DNA from: Hyphococcus sp.
Lineage (GTDB): Bacteria; Pseudomonadota; Alphaproteobacteria; Caulobacterales; Parvularculaceae
Length of the DNA stretch: 64,000 nt
Assembly: GCA_021776245.1 (NCBI GenBank)
Contig: JAJFGF010000072.1
Location: 62,001 to 126,000, forward strand
Direction: 5' to 3'
Position 1 is the first letter of the stretch. Each line of letters begins with the position of its first letter. A program made the position numbers and the translations under genes. The notes beneath the pieces are model-generated. The model was given only the letters and a program-made list of their open reading frames with translations. It had not been told where the DNA came from and ran no database searches. Below, piece after piece: positions 2,098 to 49,893 of the stretch.

Positions 2098-2213
2098 GAC
2101 GCCCCTCCACATTGCACGCAATGATTCTGTCCGCACCGTGTCAAAATTGATGTTGCCGTGCAAGCAGCTTATACTGCTGCGATCCATTGGAGCGCATATG
2201 CGATGAAAAGATT

Positions 2214-3179
2214 ATGACCGACAAACCCGTTATCGCGACGCCACGGCGGTTGCCGGGTGCGCTTTCGGGCGCCTTAAAGGCGAAATATGACGTGCGCGAA
2301 CCTGAAAGCGACGTTGCGGAAGATGGCGCGTTTATGGCGATTGCCGACGGCGCTGCAGCAATATTCGCAACGGCGTTCGATGAGATGGATGCACGATTCA
2401 TCAGCGCACTGCCGGACAGCGTTAAATTTATCGCCTCAATCGGTGTTGGCGTCGATCACATCGATCTTGATACTGCAAAGGCGCGCGGGCTTGTCGTCTC
2501 CAATACGCCGGAGGTCACGACCGCTTGCCTTGCCGATACGACAATTGGGCTGATCATCGCCGGTTGCCGGCGTTTTCGAGAAGGGCTCGATATTGCCGAA
2601 ACCGGCGAGGGTCGCGGCATGCTGACGCCGGAAAGCTGGGGCCAGCGCGTCACCGGCCGCACGCTCGGCATTGTCGGCATGGGCAATGTCGGCAAAGCGG
2701 TCGCAAAGCGGGCGCGCGCTTTTGATATGAACATCATCTATACAACGCCGCGGCCGTCGGCCCAGATCGATAGTGAATTTGCCGCGCGCGCCGTCGCGTT
2801 TGAGGAGCTTTTGAAAACCGCTGATGTCATCTCGCTGCATTGTCCGCTTAAAGAGGAGACCCGTCATTTGATCGACGCGGCTGCAATCGAAAAAATGAAG
2901 CCGTCAGTTGTGATTATTAACATATCGCGGGGCCCGGTAATTGATGAGCTGGCGCTGATTGACGCGCTGAGGGCAAAGCGGGTTTTCGCCGCGGGGCTCG
3001 ATGTTTTTGAAACCGAGCCCGGGCCTATCCGGGAAGAGCTTCGGTCCTTACCAAATGCGTATTGTCTGCCGCATATTGCATCAGCCACATTTGAAAGCAG
3101 GGCAGGCATGGCGATGCGCGTGCTTGTCAATATTGACGCATTTTTTGAGACCGGCGCGCCTATTGATCAGGTGGTGTAA
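2214..3179 (+). CDS. D-isomer-specific 2-hydroxyacid dehydrogenase
   Basis: An NAD(P)-dependent dehydrogenase of 321 residues that would interconvert a 2-keto acid and a D-2-hydroxy acid in the cytoplasm, most likely glyoxylate/hydroxypyruvate-type. The Rossmann motif GMGNVG is at about residues 155-160. The catalytic Arg-Glu-His triad of the family is visible: Arg in INISRGP (about 239), Glu in DVFETEP (about 266-268) and His in LPHIASAT (about 297). ATG 2214 is preferred because the family alignment begins with KPVIATPR; an in-frame TTG at 2187 is the alternative. No obvious operon partner: the upstream gene is divergent and the next gene is 134 bp away. Confidence 0.85.
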   Translation: MTDKPVIATPRRLPGALSGALKAKYDVREPESDVAEDGAFMAIADGAAAIFATAFDEMDARFISALPDSVKFIASIGVGVDHIDLDTAKARGLVVSNTPEVTTACLADTTIGLIIAGCRRFREGLDIAETGEGRGMLTPESWGQRVTGRTLGIVGMGNVGKAVAKRARAFDMNIIYTTPRPSAQIDSEFAARAVAFEELLKTADVISLHCPLKEETRHLIDAAAIEKMKPSVVIINISRGPVIDELALIDALRAKRVFAAGLDVFETEPGPIREELRSLPNAYCLPHIASATFESRAGMAMRVLVNIDAFFETGAPIDQVV

Positions 3180-3313
3180 AGGAACGAACGTCAAATCGCC
3201 GCCATCTTATTGACCCGAAACGAAGCCGGGCGCGGCAAATTGCAGCGGTCAATCTAACCCGGCATTAACTCAAATGACGGAAATTTCTCCTCTGTATATC
3301 TGGGGATATTCTT

Positions 3314-3976
3314 ATGCGTCCTTTGGCGACGATATTGGCTGTTGTCTTTTTATCCGGCTGCGCCACGATGTCGGCGGAAGAATGTCTGACCGCCGACTGG
3401 CAGGCGATCGGATATGAAGACGGCGCCAGGGGCGCGTCTGTTTCAGCGGTTACATCACGCCGGCAGGCATGCGCAAAGACCGCAGGCGTTACGGTTGATA
3501 TGGCCGCCTATATGGCGGGTCGCGATATGGGGCTGGTTGAATTTTGTCAGCCGCCGAACGGTTATGCGCTGGGCGCCCGCGGCGGCGCCTATCTTGGGGT
3601 TTGCAGCGGGCCGGAAGAGCGCGAGTTTGTCGCGGCGTTTGAATCCGGCCGCCAGCTTTACGCGCTCGAGAACGCAGTGGCGTCGGCCGAAGCACAGATC
3701 AATAAGGCGCAATATGATTTGCATGAAGTTGATAAACAGATCACCCATACGGAAGTGACCCTGATCGCGCCAGGAACGCCGGCGGAACAGCGGTTGCGTA
3801 TGCTGGCGGACCTCAAACATCTGTCAGAGCGCAAGGGCAATATTGAAACTGCTCTCATCGCACTGAATCGTGATCATGTTCGCGCCCAGGAAGAGCTCGC
3901 CGAGTATCACCGCTTTATCGCATTTAACGGACCCTATCCGAATGTTGTGACGTCGCCGTCAAATGCAAATTTTTAG
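3314..3976 (+). CDS. DUF2799-family lipoprotein
   Basis: A 220-residue secreted lipoprotein. The N-terminus has a short hydrophobic core ending in the lipobox LSGC (Cys 16). The body has the DUF2799 features: the motif W-x-x-I-G-Y-x-D-G-x-x-G near residue 30, an AYMAGRDMGL block and paired cysteines (about 53, 78 and 97). Residues 120-205 are rich in charged heptad-like sequence and probably form a coiled coil (AEAQINKAQYDLHEVDKQI). The role of the family is unknown; it is an outer-membrane or periplasmic anchored protein. GGGGA lies 8 bases before the ATG. Confidence 0.75.
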   Translation: MRPLATILAVVFLSGCATMSAEECLTADWQAIGYEDGARGASVSAVTSRRQACAKTAGVTVDMAAYMAGRDMGLVEFCQPPNGYALGARGGAYLGVCSGPEEREFVAAFESGRQLYALENAVASAEAQINKAQYDLHEVDKQITHTEVTLIAPGTPAEQRLRMLADLKHLSERKGNIETALIALNRDHVRAQEELAEYHRFIAFNGPYPNVVTSPSNANF

Positions 3977-4046
3977 CTGCAATCTGACATAGGTAACCGG
4001 CATCGGCCGCTTTGCATCGGCGCCGGCCGGGGCTAAACCGCCTGTC

Positions 4047-4931
4047 ATGGACGGAATGAAAATTCTTGTGGCTGGCGCCGGCGCGACCATCGGCAGGGAA
4101 ATTGTCTGCGCGCTTCGGTCAAAAGGCGCTGAGGTTACGGCAACCTACCGGACGTCCCGGCCGGGCATTGAAGAAAAACTGTCGTCGATGGGCGCAGCGG
4201 CAATGCAACTCGACCTCACTGATGTTATAAAAGCAAAGGCCTTGCTCAAAGACGTTGATGCCGCGGTGTTCGCACCTATTTTGAGCGTCTCCGGCGCATT
4301 GGCAAATCTGTTACGCGATGATCAGCGCGCAGTTTTTTTCTCCAGCAACAATGTGGCAATTGTCCCCGGAACGGATGTCTATGCGCAGCTTCTGGAGATC
4401 GAAAGGGCAGTCACCCTTGCGGCGCCGCAGGCGGTGATTTTACGGCCGACAATGATTTACGGTTATCCGGGCGACGGCAATTTGAGCAGGCTTATGATGT
4501 TGATGCGCCGATTTTCCGTTGCGCCCCTGATCGGCGCGAGCGACGCATTACAGCAACCTGTTTATTACAAGGCCCTGGCTCAGGTCGCGGTCAATGCGCT
4601 TTTTGCGCCCCCCGGCCATCCGCGGCGATTCGCCGTTGCTGGTCCCCAGCCCATAACCAAAAGAGCATTGTTCGACGCTGTTGCGCTTGCCGCTGGGGCG
4701 CAGCCATTGATTGTCCCGTTGCCAATTGCCGGGCTTGCGCCAATATTGAGGGTTATTGAGAAGTCGGGCCTCTACCTGCCGGTATCATCAGATCAAATCG
4801 CCCGCGCTGAACTGGATAAAATCCCAGCCGGCGAACATGCGATATTGACCGATATGAAGCTGGAGGCGGGACTAGCGGCGCTGGCTGCGGCACTCGACGC
4901 CGGCCTTGACGAGGCCCCGGCGGGCGCCTAG
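4047..4931 (+). CDS. Atypical short-chain dehydrogenase-like NAD(P)-binding protein
   Basis: A 294-residue protein with an N-terminal Rossmann fold: MKILVAGAGATIGREIVCAL gives a GxGxxG-type dinucleotide loop (GAGATIG). An ILRPTMIYGYPGDGNL segment near 130-147 resembles the RP-x-x-xYGPGD block of NmrA/complex-I-NDUFA9-like atypical SDRs. The usual catalytic Tyr-x-x-x-Lys is not clearly present, so a redox reaction is uncertain; members often act as cofactor sensors or assembly factors. The start may be 4047 or the ATG three codons later. It precedes grxD by 30 bp in the same direction, so the two may be co-transcribed. Confidence 0.65.
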   Translation: MDGMKILVAGAGATIGREIVCALRSKGAEVTATYRTSRPGIEEKLSSMGAAAMQLDLTDVIKAKALLKDVDAAVFAPILSVSGALANLLRDDQRAVFFSSNNVAIVPGTDVYAQLLEIERAVTLAAPQAVILRPTMIYGYPGDGNLSRLMMLMRRFSVAPLIGASDALQQPVYYKALAQVAVNALFAPPGHPRRFAVAGPQPITKRALFDAVALAAGAQPLIVPLPIAGLAPILRVIEKSGLYLPVSSDQIARAELDKIPAGEHAILTDMKLEAGLAALAAALDAGLDEAPAGA

Positions 4932-43953: not shown

Positions 43954-46146
43954 ATGCGATCAGTTGGACATCCATCAGGTGAAATCTGCAGCCGCGCGAA
44001 AGGTGACCTGCGCGATTGCTTTCCGGCTTTCCTGACGCCGCCCTCTCTGATACTGTCAGCAGCATTGATCGGTAAACTTTTCATATTCCTGGTCGTTGGT
44101 GGTTTAGTTTTTGGGACCGCGAACGCCGCGCCTTATGTTTCAAACGAGACGCCTGCGCTCCCAGGCTTACTCCGCCCCTTCATATTTATTGCGCTCATCA
44201 TACTGCCAGGTGCGTGGATTGGTTTTTCGCCGCTGGCGCGGAGGCTCGATGTATGGATGCGGCTTTGTCTCTCTGTTGTTTTGTCGCCACTCGTGCTTTT
44301 CGCGCAGTTTTACATGTTGCGTCTTTTTGGTCTGCCGGTTGGCCTGCTGCCTTTTATCTTAACACTGATCAATGCGTCGGCAGGCTTTTTAATATTCAAG
44401 GCCCGCCGGGAATTTGTGTTGCCGGATAGAGTGACGTTTGTTGCAACTCTTGCTGTGTTGGCGTTGCCGCTCAGTTTCCTGGCCTATAGCTTCCATGACG
44501 AGACGGTATTGGTCTTGCGCGCGCATAATTGGTTACACTCCGACTTGGTCTATCAATTCCTGGCAGGCAAATTGCTGCCGGAAGAAATGGCGCTTGCCGG
44601 CGAAGTGACGGCCTACCCCTGGGCTGCGCACATCTACCAATCGATATTAAGTGCGACGTTGCACGTCGCGCCGTCATTGAGTTATGCGTTAACAAACATT
44701 GTCTGGTTGCTGGCGCTGTTTGGAATTGCGGCGCTGATTGCAAAGGAGTTCGGCGGGGGGCGCATCGCGCAAATCACGGCGCCGATTTGGGTGACATTCG
44801 CTGTCAACCCCGTGGGTCTTGGCATTCGTCAAGTGGCTCCGTTGTTCAACATTCGCGATATTGTTCCATGGGATTTAATTCTACCGATATTCGGCGATCC
44901 ACGATATACATCGGTTCTCCGAAAATATTACAACTTTAATCAGATGCCCTTTGCGTTCGCATTACTTGGGGCACTGACTTATTTGGCTATCGTTGAACGA
45001 CCGGATTTCGGCCCAAAGGCGCGTGGTGCGTTGATGGGGGCCGTTCTGATAAGCATGCTTGTCATCTATCCCCTCTTTCTACCCGTCGGATGCGGTATCA
45101 TCGGCGCACGCATCGTTGCGGTTTGGTTCAATCAGGATGCAAAAGCGCGCTCCAGCCGGCGAAGTGAGGCGGTGGCGCTTTTCATCGCAATGGCTGTCAC
45201 CTGCACGCTGGCGTTTCCATATCTTGAGATCATCCTTCAGGACCGTATAGGCGGCAGTGGGCCGCGCCTCGACTTTTCAATGTACCAGATCAAGAAAGTC
45301 GCCCACACGGGTTTCGCATTGATTCTGCCGGTTGCAGCGTTCGCATTCGTAGCAAGGCGGTTATGGCCTGGAATGCAGACGGCGCTCCTGGTCATCGGGC
45401 TTACAGCCGTCGGTCTGATTGCACTTCATATTTTCGTCCATATTCCCAATTGGCGCGGCGAATACAAATTTATCATGGCGGCAGCCGTTATCCTGACACC
45501 CTTTGTGGGCGTCGCGATTGAACCTTGGGTTGCGGCGTTACAAAAAAATGGTCGCATCACTGCAGTGTTTGCAGTTGCAGCAGCGAGTTTGGCGATCGCG
45601 ACGCCGTCATCAATCAGGCTGTTTACTGAATTTGGGTATGGGCCAGTCGAAAGGCCAGATGTCTTCATCGACGGCCTCGATCTTAGATACGCAGCGAGCG
45701 AACCGCTTGCGGGCGCGCTCGACACGATCCGCACCAGGACGCCTCCCTCGACGCTGATCGTTTTCGCCCAAAAGAAATACTACCTGCCGACCATTGCGCG
45801 TCGTACGGCGTTCACGCCTTACGATCAGTTTGAGGCGCTTGCGGGTGTTGGCTTTCCGATAAATTACATGCTGTTCAGCGTTAAAGGCTACGACACACAA
45901 AAAAGCGCCTACCGAGTGGCGAGCGTCACTAACCTCTATTTCGGCGACAATGACGATGTGCGGGCGGAGGCTCTCGGCGAAATGCTGGCGCTTGCACGAC
46001 CGGTAGCCATCATCATTAATCGTTCAACAGAGCAAGATCTCGAGGCCTGGTTAGGGACCACAAATGGCGCCGCCGCGATCCATGAGGACGACAGCCACGC
46101 CGTTTGGCTTGTCTATCCCAATGAGTTCGATCACAGCAGCCCATGA
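43954..46146 (+). CDS. Large polytopic membrane protein of unknown family
   Basis: A 730-residue protein with about 12 hydrophobic segments (first at about 35-55, last near 540-560) and a soluble C-terminal domain of about 170 residues. Between early segments lies a loop with FHDE, HSDLVYQFLAGK and YPWAAHIYQS, and a later one with NFNQMPFAF. The layout of many membrane segments, an acidic residue in the first loop and a terminal soluble domain resembles GT-C glycosyltransferases or other polyprenyl-linked sugar enzymes, but I do not recognise the family. Base use looks more AT-rich than its neighbours. It is flanked by sulfotransferase repeats and reads opposite to them. Confidence 0.6.
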   Translation: MRSVGHPSGEICSRAKGDLRDCFPAFLTPPSLILSAALIGKLFIFLVVGGLVFGTANAAPYVSNETPALPGLLRPFIFIALIILPGAWIGFSPLARRLDVWMRLCLSVVLSPLVLFAQFYMLRLFGLPVGLLPFILTLINASAGFLIFKARREFVLPDRVTFVATLAVLALPLSFLAYSFHDETVLVLRAHNWLHSDLVYQFLAGKLLPEEMALAGEVTAYPWAAHIYQSILSATLHVAPSLSYALTNIVWLLALFGIAALIAKEFGGGRIAQITAPIWVTFAVNPVGLGIRQVAPLFNIRDIVPWDLILPIFGDPRYTSVLRKYYNFNQMPFAFALLGALTYLAIVERPDFGPKARGALMGAVLISMLVIYPLFLPVGCGIIGARIVAVWFNQDAKARSSRRSEAVALFIAMAVTCTLAFPYLEIILQDRIGGSGPRLDFSMYQIKKVAHTGFALILPVAAFAFVARRLWPGMQTALLVIGLTAVGLIALHIFVHIPNWRGEYKFIMAAAVILTPFVGVAIEPWVAALQKNGRITAVFAVAAASLAIATPSSIRLFTEFGYGPVERPDVFIDGLDLRYAASEPLAGALDTIRTRTPPSTLIVFAQKKYYLPTIARRTAFTPYDQFEALAGVGFPINYMLFSVKGYDTQKSAYRVASVTNLYFGDNDDVRAEALGEMLALARPVAIIINRSTEQDLEAWLGTTNGAAAIHEDDSHAVWLVYPNEFDHSSP

Positions 46147-46449: not shown

Positions 46450-47502
46450 TTAGGACAACGTGCTGCGGCTGCGTTCTGTCATGGTCTGGTAAAGCTTGTG
46501 CGCAATGTCCAGACGCTCGAATGATGATTTTTCAGTATCGTCTTTGCGTCTTTCGCGAACCTCAAGGACGGCTGTCGGCTCGAGATCGAGGCGATCGAAC
46601 AGCCGGGCACTGACTTCCTCCGGCGCATCCGTAAAGCGCTCGTAGGAAAAGAACACCAGCTGGTCGCCCAATGCATCCGCCTGTCGCATCAAATAGGCAT
46701 ACGCGTCGATCCACAAATCGAGCCAGTAAGATAATTGACCCGGATCGCCATAGACTGAAGCGTCGGCGCCGTCGAACACCAAACGCCGTTGGTCGCCGCC
46801 AAATTCGTGATGCGCGAGCCAGCCCATATATTGCCGGGAAAAAACATCTTCAGCGTGGGTCTTTGTAAATTGCTTATGCTGGCGCAGGAGTGATTTTGCC
46901 TGATCGGCTGGTTCGCGAAACGGGATGAGGATTGTCGCATTCGGAAACGCGCTGAGGATCGAAGAAAGGCGCAGGATCGAATTATTGTTTTTTGAAAGAT
47001 ATCGCGACGCCGCATATCGTTTCAAGATCAGCGCAACATAAAGGCGAAACTCGGCAATCACATCATCATCGGCGATCATGGGACAAAGCTTGTCCGCGCC
47101 GATATAATCGGGGCCGCAATAGGTTCGCCAAAAAACTTCTTCCAGCGCCTCCGGGCTGTCATAGTCAACTTCTAATCCATCGCCATGGGCGCGCTCCCGT
47201 CGGGCCATGGATTTTTGAAAAGCGCCCGATATGCCGCGCCAAAAATTTGGCGCCATCACCAGCGGCATATCGCGATAGGTAAGCGATGCGAAAGCGCCCG
47301 TGTCATGGAGCATGCGCATCAACAGCGTAGTGCCTGATCGCGCCAGACCAGATACAAAAACATGGGCGCCATCTGTCGCATCAGCACAGTCACGGCCATG
47401 CATCGCTTTTTCAATATCGAAAAACATTTCCGGCGTTGCGCGGCCCGAAAGCGCTATTTTATGAAACAGGCGCGCCCCTGCGCCATATCCTTCAGGAGAC
47501 AA
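46450..47502 (-). CDS. Sulfotransferase
   Basis: A 350-residue PAPS-dependent sulfotransferase. The 5'-phosphosulfate-binding loop is VFVSGLARSGTTLLMRML (about 48-65), and the 3'-phosphate-binding region is seen near NATILIPFREPADQAKSLL. It would add sulfate to a carbohydrate or lipid acceptor; the acceptor is unknown. It starts at a TTG that overlaps the upstream membrane gene by 11 bases. It is the last gene of a four-gene minus-strand operon headed by an arylsulfotransferase-like protein. Its 3' end is duplicated at 43298-43650. Confidence 0.85.
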   Translation of the reverse strand: MSPEGYGAGARLFHKIALSGRATPEMFFDIEKAMHGRDCADATDGAHVFVSGLARSGTTLLMRMLHDTGAFASLTYRDMPLVMAPNFWRGISGAFQKSMARRERAHGDGLEVDYDSPEALEEVFWRTYCGPDYIGADKLCPMIADDDVIAEFRLYVALILKRYAASRYLSKNNNSILRLSSILSAFPNATILIPFREPADQAKSLLRQHKQFTKTHAEDVFSRQYMGWLAHHEFGGDQRRLVFDGADASVYGDPGQLSYWLDLWIDAYAYLMRQADALGDQLVFFSYERFTDAPEEVSARLFDRLDLEPTAVLEVRERRKDDTEKSSFERLDIAHKLYQTMTERSRSTLS

Positions 47503-47860
47503 AACGAAGTCTCACAAAAGCATAGGCAGCAGCCACAGTGACGCTAAGAACCATACCGGGAATCGAAACGAAAAGGCTCATGAGCGGCACATTCACCAAC
47601 TGCGAGATCGCAAGGGCAACCAAAACCGGCGCAAAAGCCAGCGCGATCATCGCGCTAAGCCGCAATGTCTGCAGAAAAAGGGCGCCCGCATAGGCAGGCA
47701 GAACTCGTTCTTTCCAATGGTCGGATATTTTGTCGGCGCGGATCAGGATCGCTGATTTCGCCGCAATCACTGATGACCGGCGCACGCTGTCAATAATCGG
47801 CAGGCGGATGAATAACTCGGCGACTATAAATGTTGAGACGATTAAAAGAGCGAAAGCCAT
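47492..47860 (-). CDS. Small integral membrane protein of the sulfotransferase operon
   Basis: A 122-residue protein with an N-terminal hydrophobic segment (about 1-20) and two or three more (about 62-85 and 90-115). In between is an amphipathic stretch with SVRRSSVIAAKSAILIRADKISDHWKERVLPAYA. I do not recognise the family. It is 10 bp downstream of the YTGPGLGAA protein gene and overlaps the sulfotransferase by 11 bases, so it is tightly linked with both. Confidence 0.6.
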   Translation of the reverse strand: MAFALLIVSTFIVAELFIRLPIIDSVRRSSVIAAKSAILIRADKISDHWKERVLPAYAGALFLQTLRLSAMIALAFAPVLVALAISQLVNVPLMSLFVSIPGMVLSVTVAAAYAFVRLRFVS

Positions 47861-47870
47861 AATGGTGGTT

Positions 47871-48158
47871 TCATTTCACAGCCTCGCCTGAGGCTGCGTC
47901 CTCCGGGTCAGCTTTTTTTAACGTCGCTATATCATCGCTCGAATTCGTTGCAGCGCTGTGCGCCCGTGATTTTTTGCGATTCTTCAACAGCCGTTTTACC
48001 GGATACCAGATCACGGCAAACAGCGCGACAAAGATCGAGGTAAAGAAACCAACGACAATGGCAATGGTCGCCGCCCCGAGCCCTGGGCCCGTATAGGCGA
48101 GCGCCGGTTCGCTTGCCATCGCCGCAATTATTATCGATATGACAAAGAGCTTTTTCAT
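47871..48158 (-). CDS. Small membrane protein with YTGPGLGAA motif
   Basis: A 95-residue protein with a signal-like first segment (about 3-18, cleaved near ALAYTG), then YTGPGLGAATIAIVVGFFTSIFVALFAVIWYPVKRLLKNRKKS, a single membrane anchor with a basic stop-transfer. A charged, Asp/Ala-rich tail of about 30 residues follows. Proteins with the YTGPG-G motif are seen beside sugar- or sulfate-modifying genes in other proteobacteria (recalled, not checked here). The start at 48158 has AGG upstream; the frame extends further to 48245 but without the signal feature. Confidence 0.6.
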   Translation of the reverse strand: MKKLFVISIIIAAMASEPALAYTGPGLGAATIAIVVGFFTSIFVALFAVIWYPVKRLLKNRKKSRAHSAATNSSDDIATLKKADPEDAASGEAVK

Positions 48159-48229
48159 TTGAGCCTGCGCCTTTCTTGAATTGAACACCACATCCATTTG
48201 ACCAATCACATTTTCTCTTCCCTTTATTG

Positions 48230-49606
48230 TCAAACAGATTCGCAATCAAGATTTGCCAGCCTTGTACGCAGCCCATCCGCAGTGTCTGCGGATAGATATC
48301 TGGACCATTGGACATGGTACACTTGCTGGTCGCTCGCTCGGTTGACGTAACGCCATCGAATATCTCCATCAGAGTTCATGGCGAGAATTCGTCCAAAGTT
48401 CTGCTCTTCAACAAACACATCGCCATTAGGAAGGATCTCGCTCAACCCGTCGGTAATTGTTCTGACTTCATGACGGCGGAGGCCTTCGCTGTAGGAAGAT
48501 CGCACCTGATCACTTTCGAAATCATATATGAGTATTTCATTTGAGCCCAGAACATATTCGCCGCCGGGAGCCGCAGCAGTATGATTGTTGAAAATGCTTA
48601 TCTCGTGATTGCTCACGATGTCGACATCATGTTGGGCCATCCACGGACCGTGCTTGCGCCACAAGACCTCATTTGTGGACGGACGATACAGGATCACGGT
48701 GGAGCGATTTCGCAGGCTGAGAAACACATCACCGCGAAGCCAATATTGACCATCCTCCAAAACGGGCTGGATGTCGTTCAAATGCAACGGGTCTGCCATA
48801 TAGTCGTCGCCAGTATAAACCAGATATTCCAATCCGTTGTCGATCAGCAGTTGGCCAACCGATTTTTCGAAGAGAACCTCGCCATCCGGCGATATTTTCG
48901 CTATCGCGTTGTCCGAAAACGCCGCCGACGTCAGCGCGATTGAGGACGGCACAAGGTTTTTCGGCACCCAATAATTCCCGTTCGGACCGCGTTCGATAGA
49001 ATGATGAAAAATGCCGTCGAGCGCCCACTCGATCCGAGAGCAAGCGTCTACCTTAACAAACGGCGTTCCCATACCCTGAAAGGCGAGATGGCCATCCTCT
49101 CCGACCTCGGGATGAGTAATCATGTATCTCCCGGCATGATGATCGCGCGCATGATTGACTTCCGTCACGCTCAAATTTGATAGCGCGTTGATAGCATCGA
49201 AGTCCGGCGCGTATTTATGAATGACATCTCCACTGTCTACATCAATCAATTCGACAACAGACCGGCCAATATCACCATCATAGCGTGAGAGGACGAGGAG
49301 GCCGCCTGTGGGCCCCGCGGCGTTGATGATTTCAAAACCGGCTTGTCCCTCGAAACGCTGTTGCCGCGTTATTTGCGGGTGGGCGCCTTTGAAAACTTCA
49401 TTTACGACATGGCGCGTATCGGCTGGGATTCTCGCAATTCTCAGTGAAGCATCCGCAACCGGATTCGAGCGATAGGGGTCATTTGCCGCAAACTCGACCA
49501 AAGCGCCAAAACCAACAACACCAAAGATTGCAATAATCACCAGCAAGCCGAGTTGCCAGTTCTCGAACGCAATTCGCCGTTGCTTGAGAAAAAACTCTTT
49601 TATCAT
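48230..49606 (-). CDS. Arylsulfotransferase-like (ASST family) exported protein
   Basis: A 458-residue protein with an N-terminal membrane anchor (about 18-40). The rest is a beta-propeller-like fold typical of the arylsulfotransferase families: GLLVLSRYDG, HLAFQGMGTPFVKVD, IEWALDGIFHHSIERGPNGNYWVP, and QHDVDIVSNHEISIFNNH. In ASST enzymes a His in such an HHS/HHD motif forms the sulfo-histidine intermediate and PAPS is not used. Whether this one is active is not certain. GGGGA lies 6 bases before ATG 49606; an ATG two codons earlier is possible. It is the first gene of the four-gene sulfation-type operon. Confidence 0.75.
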   Translation of the reverse strand: MIKEFFLKQRRIAFENWQLGLLVIIAIFGVVGFGALVEFAANDPYRSNPVADASLRIARIPADTRHVVNEVFKGAHPQITRQQRFEGQAGFEIINAAGPTGGLLVLSRYDGDIGRSVVELIDVDSGDVIHKYAPDFDAINALSNLSVTEVNHARDHHAGRYMITHPEVGEDGHLAFQGMGTPFVKVDACSRIEWALDGIFHHSIERGPNGNYWVPKNLVPSSIALTSAAFSDNAIAKISPDGEVLFEKSVGQLLIDNGLEYLVYTGDDYMADPLHLNDIQPVLEDGQYWLRGDVFLSLRNRSTVILYRPSTNEVLWRKHGPWMAQHDVDIVSNHEISIFNNHTAAAPGGEYVLGSNEILIYDFESDQVRSSYSEGLRRHEVRTITDGLSEILPNGDVFVEEQNFGRILAMNSDGDIRWRYVNRASDQQVYHVQWSRYLSADTADGLRTRLANLDCESV

Positions 49607-49893
49607 TCGCATTCCCCGGACATCCGCTCAGCGTCAACGTTTACAGCCCACACACAACGGTACAACCAAATACTCCCTCCAACCCAATGAAATTATAGCA
49701 CCGGGGCGGATCCAAAACCATTTTTCCACTCCGAATTTATTGTTATTGTCACAACAGCTTGCAATTCAGTCGCAACAGCATTTGGCCGGGTTCCGCTGAT
49801 GGTTGTTTATCCAGCCCGAGATTCCCCATACGCTGTATATTGCTCGCTGTTCGCGAGCCTTTCCGTTCCCACCGCATGAGCTAGAATATCGTC
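49607..49893. other. Divergent intergenic region
   Basis: A 287-bp region between the arylsulfotransferase-like and VWA genes, with AT-rich blocks at 49690-49760 (for example TTATTGTTATTGTCACAAC) that are likely to hold promoters for both directions. No palindromic operator stands out. Confidence 0.4.

Follow-up and report, generated by a model that had tools for sequence, protein, structure and literature searches.

Two-step sulfation in bacteria is known from the caprazamycin pathway of Streptomyces. According to the accessible text of PMC6731281, Cpz8 sulfates a triketide pyrone at the expense of 3′-phosphoadenosine 5′-phosphosulfate (PAPS), and Cpz4 moves the group on to the aminoribose of a caprazamycin intermediate. 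Cpz4 is an exception: in the accessible part of a 2026 review (PMC13426309), the natural substrates of bacterial PAPS-independent sulfotransferases are described as unidentified and their role as poorly understood. Two further systems are close enough to be compared, the assT-dsbL-dsbI genes of Escherichia coli CFT073, which encode the arylsulfotransferase AssT, and the Sulfotransfer_3 family with the mycobacterial Stf1 and Stf9 and the tyrosylprotein sulfotransferases. We here discuss four adjacent genes in a 64,000-nucleotide stretch of Hyphococcus sp. DNA (contig JAJFGF010000072.1, positions 62,001 to 126,000; "the window" hereafter means this whole stretch). They encode a PAPS-independent arylsulfotransferase-type protein (ASST), a small membrane protein with a Y-x-G-P-G motif (YG), a second membrane protein (MP) and a PAPS-type sulfotransferase (ST).

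We lean towards the view that the four genes make up a sulfation module, self-contained and patchily distributed, and that it acts as a relay of two steps across the inner membrane. ST, which MP would hold at the cytosolic face, would use PAPS to sulfate an aromatic hydroxyl of a membrane-held carrier, which may be a common cell component such as a quinol or the module's own YG tyrosine. Once the carrier has reached the outer face, ASST would take over the sulfuryl group on His328 and, its propeller being held in the periplasm by one N-terminal helix, would hand it on to an acceptor in the envelope, probably a glycan or a lipid. YG would be the neighbour of ASST at the outer face and serve as its partner, as a lid or as the carrier. 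Such a division of labour, like that of Cpz8 and Cpz4 with membrane parts added, would account for the joint occurrence of ST and ASST and for the dependence of the remaining genes on an ASST. In this module an ASST is joined by a PAPS sulfotransferase of its own and by two conserved membrane proteins, which bears directly on the question of where ASSTs obtain their sulfate. If the relay is real, it would offer bacteria a general route to the sulfation of targets beyond the cytosol, where no PAPS is expected to be at hand, and YG and MP, two protein families without names, would gain a function to test.

The initial annotation had described four tight minus-strand genes as a candidate sulfation system. 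The packing is borne out: all four frames are open and span 46450-49612, with a gap of 71 nt between ASST and YG, one of 10 nt between YG and MP, and an overlap of 11 nt between MP and ST. The end of the set had been placed at 49606, which is indeed an in-frame ATG, yet the second of two; the open frame itself begins at 49612. That the genes form a dedicated sulfation system is supported by their co-occurrence and by the key family residues kept in both enzymes. The features are as follows.

48230..49612, minus strand: ASST, 460 aa, PF14269, a propeller of the PAPS-independent arylsulfotransferase type with a single predicted membrane anchor at its N-terminus
48629..48631, minus strand: codon of ASST His328, which aligns with E. 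coli AssT His436 and is proposed as the catalytic histidine that becomes sulfated
47871..48158, minus strand: YG, small membrane protein of 95 aa counted from the ATG at 48158, with Y-x-G-P-G
48093..48095, minus strand: codon of YG Tyr22, the invariant tyrosine and first residue of the predicted mature protein
47492..47860, minus strand: MP, membrane protein of 122 aa with a conserved basic loop of the ISDHWKE type
46450..47502, minus strand: ST, a 350-aa PAPS-type sulfotransferase (Sulfotransfer_3 family) with a TTG start that overlaps the end of MP

Genome contigs were scanned with an ST alignment, and 80 of the 111 confirmed stretches, which are selected by similarity to ST and are not a random sample, make up 81 loci together with the window. 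Three of them, L037, L039 and L052, are apparently the genomes of the search seeds L033, L034 and L032 and would match by construction. Profile searches within 4 kb of ST detected YG in 76 of the 81 loci, MP in 74 and ASST in 68. The loci belong to Alpha-, Gamma- and Betaproteobacteria, Desulfobacterota, Bacteroidota, Planctomycetota, Nitrospinota, Opitutales and others. With relatives of the four genes grouped in several phyla, the set is far beyond chance, and the conserved co-occurrence that had been proposed as a check on the sulfation system was found. The order ASST-YG-MP-ST prevails (47 loci), followed by YG-MP-ST (10), ASST-YG-ST (5), MP-ST-ASST-YG (4), MP-ST (3), YG-MP-ST with an inverted ASST (3) and nine single arrangements. 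This spread suggests that the genes tend to act as two pairs, ASST-YG and MP-ST.

The likeness to caprazamycin biosynthesis lies in a PAPS-type sulfotransferase and a Cpz4-like ASST that are encoded together, as in 68 of the 81 loci including the window. It ends where the ASST of the module has a predicted membrane anchor, where two undescribed membrane proteins join in, and where the genes are found in several phyla. No description of the four-gene set or of the YxGPG protein was found in the open-licence PMC literature. The earlier statement that no named pathway has exactly this set therefore stands for the four genes together; sulfation in a PAPS-dependent and a PAPS-independent step, however, is known from the caprazamycin work (accessible text of PMC6731281).

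A sample of 192 Alphaproteobacteria, drawn evenly across the class, yielded matches to ASST in 13 genomes, to YG in 13 and to ST in 10. One of the ten, G235, was set aside as outside the family (ST match 8e-6); it has ASST matches and no YG match. In all nine genomes with a strong ST, YG lies at most 1.1 kb from it, the YG of G141 being partial and containing a stop; ASST lies within 1.2 kb of that YG in seven of the nine and somewhere in the genome in eight. The table of strong ST against ASST reads 8, 1, 5 and 178 genomes (Fisher p 2.9e-10). Among the 81 loci, 13 have no ASST within 4 kb of ST, and for 12 of these an ASST is present elsewhere in the genome (E 0.001 or better). All ten YG-MP-ST loci are of this kind, with best E-values from 5e-135 to 8e-77; the ASSTs of L037 and L039 were already known, and the contig of L041 ends at YG, so that an adjacent ASST is possible there. 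The corresponding comparison of 10/10 with 13/192 genomes (Fisher 4.6e-11) mixes taxa, and its p-value is not relied on. The three MP-ST loci are all cut by contig ends, and one of them, L042, has a full ASST in its genome. The core, in short, depends strongly on an ASST somewhere in the genome.

This dependence also bears on a scheme of parallel sulfation without any relay, in which ST, fed by PAPS inside, and ASST, fed by environmental aryl sulfates outside, would each sulfate their own sites on one envelope polymer. The two genes would then be neighbours because they serve the same product. Some genomes do carry an ASST without the core and several have extra ASSTs away from it, and the accessible text of PMC13426309 has characterised ASSTs using simple aryl sulfates in vitro, their natural substrates not being known. 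If each enzyme worked alone, however, an ASST in the genomes of 10/10 YG-MP-ST loci would be unexpected. Small genomes argue in the same direction: G232, of only 1.2 Mb, keeps ST, YG and ASST, its ST and ASST matches each containing one TAA, and the Pelagibacteraceae loci L075 and L093 carry the three genes as well. We consider parallel sulfation rather unlikely.

The assignment of ASST rests on profile, fold and active-site residues. Against PF14269 the protein scores 150.9 bits (6.6e-44; cutoff 27), and the profile of its family finds Cpz4 (5e-13) and AssT (1e-4) among solved structures, which points to an enzyme of the PF14269 / Cpz4 type. A search of solved structures with the single sequence gave nothing useful (best 0.058); the alignment-based search succeeded. 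Profile matches to designed propellers and to trefoils were set aside, as they look like repeat similarity. The predicted model (mean predicted local distance difference test score, pLDDT, 92.8) has a long N-terminal helix at residues 2-44, a helix at 51-74 and then the propeller; the hydrophobic segment, residues 14-44, is the single predicted N-terminal membrane anchor. The best solved match of the model is Cpz4 (Foldseek 3.5e-12; Z 28.1, root mean square deviation 3.4, 314 residues aligned). E. coli AssT follows with Z up to 24.7 (deviation 4.0, 319 residues aligned), and the best match outside the ASSTs is an uncharacterised propeller with Z 22.1. The modelled fold is the propeller of the solved ASSTs.

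In an alignment of 57 sequences (54 of the 67 full-length locus ASSTs, the window's and two paralogues), H277, N279, S299, Q327, H328 and N343 are identical throughout, and H204 (56/57), R301 (54/57) and H203 (52/57) nearly so; one further alignment used 40 of the 57. In two profiles H328 falls on chain position 436 of AssT, provided that the first 3-4 columns are ungapped, a match derived from profile positions and matched stretches rather than from a printed residue-by-residue alignment. His436 is the histidine of AssT that becomes transiently sulfated (PMC13426309, accessible part). H277, N279 and R301 appear to correspond to His356, Asn358 and Arg374 of AssT, by motif and not by a printed alignment. 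To judge from these positions, ASST probably has the catalytic histidine and the sulfuryl-binding residues of PAPS-independent arylsulfotransferases. One might still take the propeller for a non-catalytic scaffold that leaves ST as the only enzyme, the more so as its identity to solved ASSTs is only 12-18%. Against this idea stand the retention of the known active-site positions (H277, N279 and H328 in 57/57, R301 in 54/57) and the fact that its strongest fold kin are the solved ASSTs; we find it hardly credible.

With AssT the module protein shares the propeller fold (Z 24.7) and the aligned His436 region. It differs in that its model has helices where AssT has an N-terminal beta-sandwich domain, as the accessible text of PMC13426309 describes it. 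The surroundings also differ: the partner is a sulfotransferase, and a Pfam and NCBIfam scan detected no Dsb family among YG, MP and ST, the operon thus being free of Dsb genes.

ASST comes in two types. Among the 60 loci with full ST, ASST and YG, 26 have one type and 34 the other, with 21% identity between the types and 32-34% within them; the STs of the same loci are 40-46% identical throughout. On a quick ST tree, 24 of whose 58 inner branches are drawn open, the type switches 9 times. Within the types the distances of ST and ASST correlate (0.45 and 0.42; 0/1000 shuffles). Within the relay, ASST would be the exchangeable output enzyme and YG-(MP)-ST the core. Type swaps on one ST family fit a division in which the core produces the donor and the output enzyme determines the acceptor.

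ST matches PF13469 at 1.1e-16 (62.2 bits; cutoff 27). In an alignment of 48 of the 79 full-length locus STs plus the window's, G52, A54, R55, G57 and T59 are invariant, as are R196 and S204 (49/49), the loop reading GLAR[SA]GTT. We take the five loop residues to be the PAPS-binding loop, and R196 and S204 to belong to the 3′-phosphate site. By profile and by these residues, ST is a likely PAPS-dependent sulfotransferase, and its host should be able to make PAPS, given an adenosine 5′-phosphosulfate (APS) kinase domain in the window's genome (7.8e-70, 235 bits). MP has no match in Pfam or NCBIfam. In 17 of the 74 loci that have both, MP and ST lie within one open frame, with MP at the N-terminus of ST; such a fused protein yields only chance-level matches in NCBIfam. 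The basic loop RSxxISDHWKE of MP is conserved in the alignments, and under the positive-inside rule the loop and the place of fusion would locate ST to the cytosolic side.

The fold match was made with a natural MP-ST fusion from L040, not with the ST of the window. The model (pLDDT 84.5) is nearest to Stf9 (Z 16.4) and Stf1 (16.3), followed by TPST1 (15.5), TPST2 (15.2) and a tick tyrosylprotein sulfotransferase (14.7); the remaining sulfotransferases reach 13.6 and less. ST thus resembles the known Sulfotransfer_3 enzymes in its PF13469 match, its PAPS-site-like motifs and its fold. It stands apart from them in forming a conserved subfamily, marked by particular motifs (SL-YRDMP, KNNN and HHEFG) and by an MP that is fused or adjacent in most loci.

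YG consists of a predicted signal peptide, the Y-x-G-P-G motif, one more hydrophobic segment and a basic tail. The window's YG reaches the cutoff of no curated family and has only weak matches in Pfam, to unrelated membrane families; its alignment comprised 46 of the 75 locus YGs with those of the window, L033, L034 and L006. The tyrosine of the motif is kept in 76/76 and is directly preceded by a signal-peptidase-like site in 69/76, the site being loosely defined (A/G/S/C at -1; A/V/S/G/T/I/L/C at -3). YG would thus expose an N-terminal or near-N-terminal tyrosine at the outer face. In L091, L102, L107 and L109 the frame opens fewer than 16 residues ahead of the tyrosine, which leaves no space for a usual signal peptide. 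YG was at first thought of mainly as a partner of ASST; this idea was given up, since YG follows ST rather than the ASST type, its distances tracking those of ST more than those of ASST (partial correlation 0.23 versus 0.09).

Tyrosine and fold together suggest another function, with ST as a protein-tyrosine sulfotransferase that acts on the invariant tyrosine of YG, ASST as an enzyme acting on tyrosine sulfate, and YG as carrier or product. The constancy of the tyrosine and the site ahead of it would be accounted for, as would the closer tracking of ST by YG. The fused model is near the two TPSTs, TPST1 being tied within 1 with Stf9 and Stf1 and other, non-tyrosyl enzymes staying at or below 13.6, and tyrosine-containing peptides are among the tested ASST acceptors listed in the accessible text of PMC13426309. 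On the predicted topology, however, the tyrosine is outside and ST inside, so that sulfation would have to precede export; one YG could carry one sulfate only, unless reloaded; and fold kinship does not reveal a substrate. Distant small proteins with YxDPG are also encoded by G015 and G017, neither of which has a match to ASST, and the tyrosine is therefore not unique to this system. We judge this function of ST improbable. Within the relay, a narrower version would have the tyrosine sulfated by a TPST-like ST before or during export and YG then serve as the sulfuryl donor from which ASST supplies the envelope acceptor. A gene-encoded aryl sulfate of this sort would explain the lack of any recurring gene for making a phenol, the module's presence in small Pelagibacter-type genomes and the invariant tyrosine beside a signal-peptidase-like site; we nevertheless give it little credence.

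The distant YG relatives of G015 and G017 (L035:8056-8313 and L036:3211-3432) are small proteins with a signal-peptide-like start and the motif YxDPGTGS. The gene in L035 lies beside nucleotide-sugar genes, that in L036 beside methyltransferase- and YidC-like genes, all named by eye.

A number of observations weigh against the two-step relay. Its carrier and its acceptor are both putative. The loci, as stated, were chosen by their ST. MP is absent from 7 of the 81 loci, and in L075, L091 and L102 there is no space for it between YG and ST, so that MP cannot be essential everywhere. The distances of ST and ASST correlate at only 0.28 when all 60 loci are taken together, and the value rises only after the split by type. 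In the class sample, 5 of the 13 ASST-bearing genomes have no strong ST, and G141 has ST and a partial YG without any ASST. ST is unmatched in four of the 13 genomes in which YG gave a match (G063, G148, G216 and G246); the YG matches in question are weak (1e-8 to 8e-5) and may reflect chance or distant kinship. Two of the contig-cut MP-ST loci fail to supply a convincing ASST, L086 having only weak matches (best 1.5e-31) and L089 none. Finally, a search for type III polyketide synthases had no match in the window's genome, and the caprazamycin carrier therefore does not apply there. In 11 module genomes including this one, four gave no match, three a match over the cutoff and four a weak one; as 5 of 14 control genomes match too, the weak matches may be related condensing enzymes.

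Near relatives illustrate how unevenly the genes are spread. Among 60 genomes, the window's own included, ASST is matched in only four (the own genome, G021, G025 and G028); within the genus the count is 3 of 28, which makes the gene patchy there. In G021, YG-MP-ST adjoins the genes that lie upstream in the window (a 391-aa protein and beyond), and no ASST is present at this place; its three ASSTs are elsewhere in the genome. In G025 the complete set stands in order at a different site, and its ASST is only 22-29% identical. G028 has YG-MP-ST with its ASSTs elsewhere. The window's genome itself harbours two more full ASSTs, ~50% identical and without a module around them, and ASST fragments.

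ASST duplications were seen in several places. On contig C73 of the window's genome (L006:9391-17217), a distant ASST is followed by its own YG, and a full close paralogue on the other strand and two ASST fragments lie nearby; the ASSTs of C73 are an expanding and decaying family. In G021 (L028:7193-12682) two tandem ASSTs precede two tandem paralogous proteins of 343-345 aa with similar N-termini. In Dongia deserti (L088:1599-6437) three tandem ASSTs lie upstream of one YG-MP-ST core.

No fifth gene recurs with the module: by simple open-reading-frame picking at E 1e-8, the largest other neighbour family is present in 9 of 80 loci. This family is a GT2 glycosyltransferase; six loci have it no more than 700 bp from the module and three at a greater distance, a count that stands without a control rate for glycosyltransferases beside random genes. 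An envelope glycan or lipid is a plausible acceptor, with the GT2 neighbour as the only, weak hint. The neighbours also bear on a role in scavenging or detoxification, in which ASST would strip incoming phenol sulfates and ST would re-sulfate or export the phenols. Known ASSTs do act on phenol sulfates (PMC13426309, accessible text). Such a role would leave the MP-ST fusion and YG unexplained, and that no neighbour family exceeds 9 of 80 loci, the one that reaches this count being GT2, speaks against it as well; it appears quite doubtful.

Twenty neighbours of other modules were scanned with Pfam: one GT2, 18 polytopic genes from the loci and, from G028, the relative of the window's own polytopic gene. 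PMT-like proteins were seen in L049, L059, L069 and L087 (under the cutoff in L059) and a GT87-like one in L081, also under the cutoff. Others were ammonium, lactate, MFS and AI-2E-type transporters and an acyltransferase, and eight had no family. The module of L043 is immediately preceded by a GT2/DPMS gene and a polytopic gene that has no family (2141-4743), which may hint at the acceptor.

Two further features lie downstream of ST in the window.

43954-46146, convergent to the four genes: polytopic gene, 730 aa
43298..43660, minus strand: truncated ST duplicate, matching only ST residues 230-350 (the C-terminal third)

The polytopic protein had been proposed as part of the system, and this did not hold up. 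No Pfam or NCBIfam family matched it, and in the 60 genomes it has, besides the own genome, a relative only in G028 (39% identity), on another contig than the module of G028; it was dropped as a partner. Beyond it sits the truncated ST copy, which the initial annotation did not list. It shares 69-70% of its protein residues with ST and 77% of its DNA over 338 bp, and is probably a pseudogene, the relic of a duplication.

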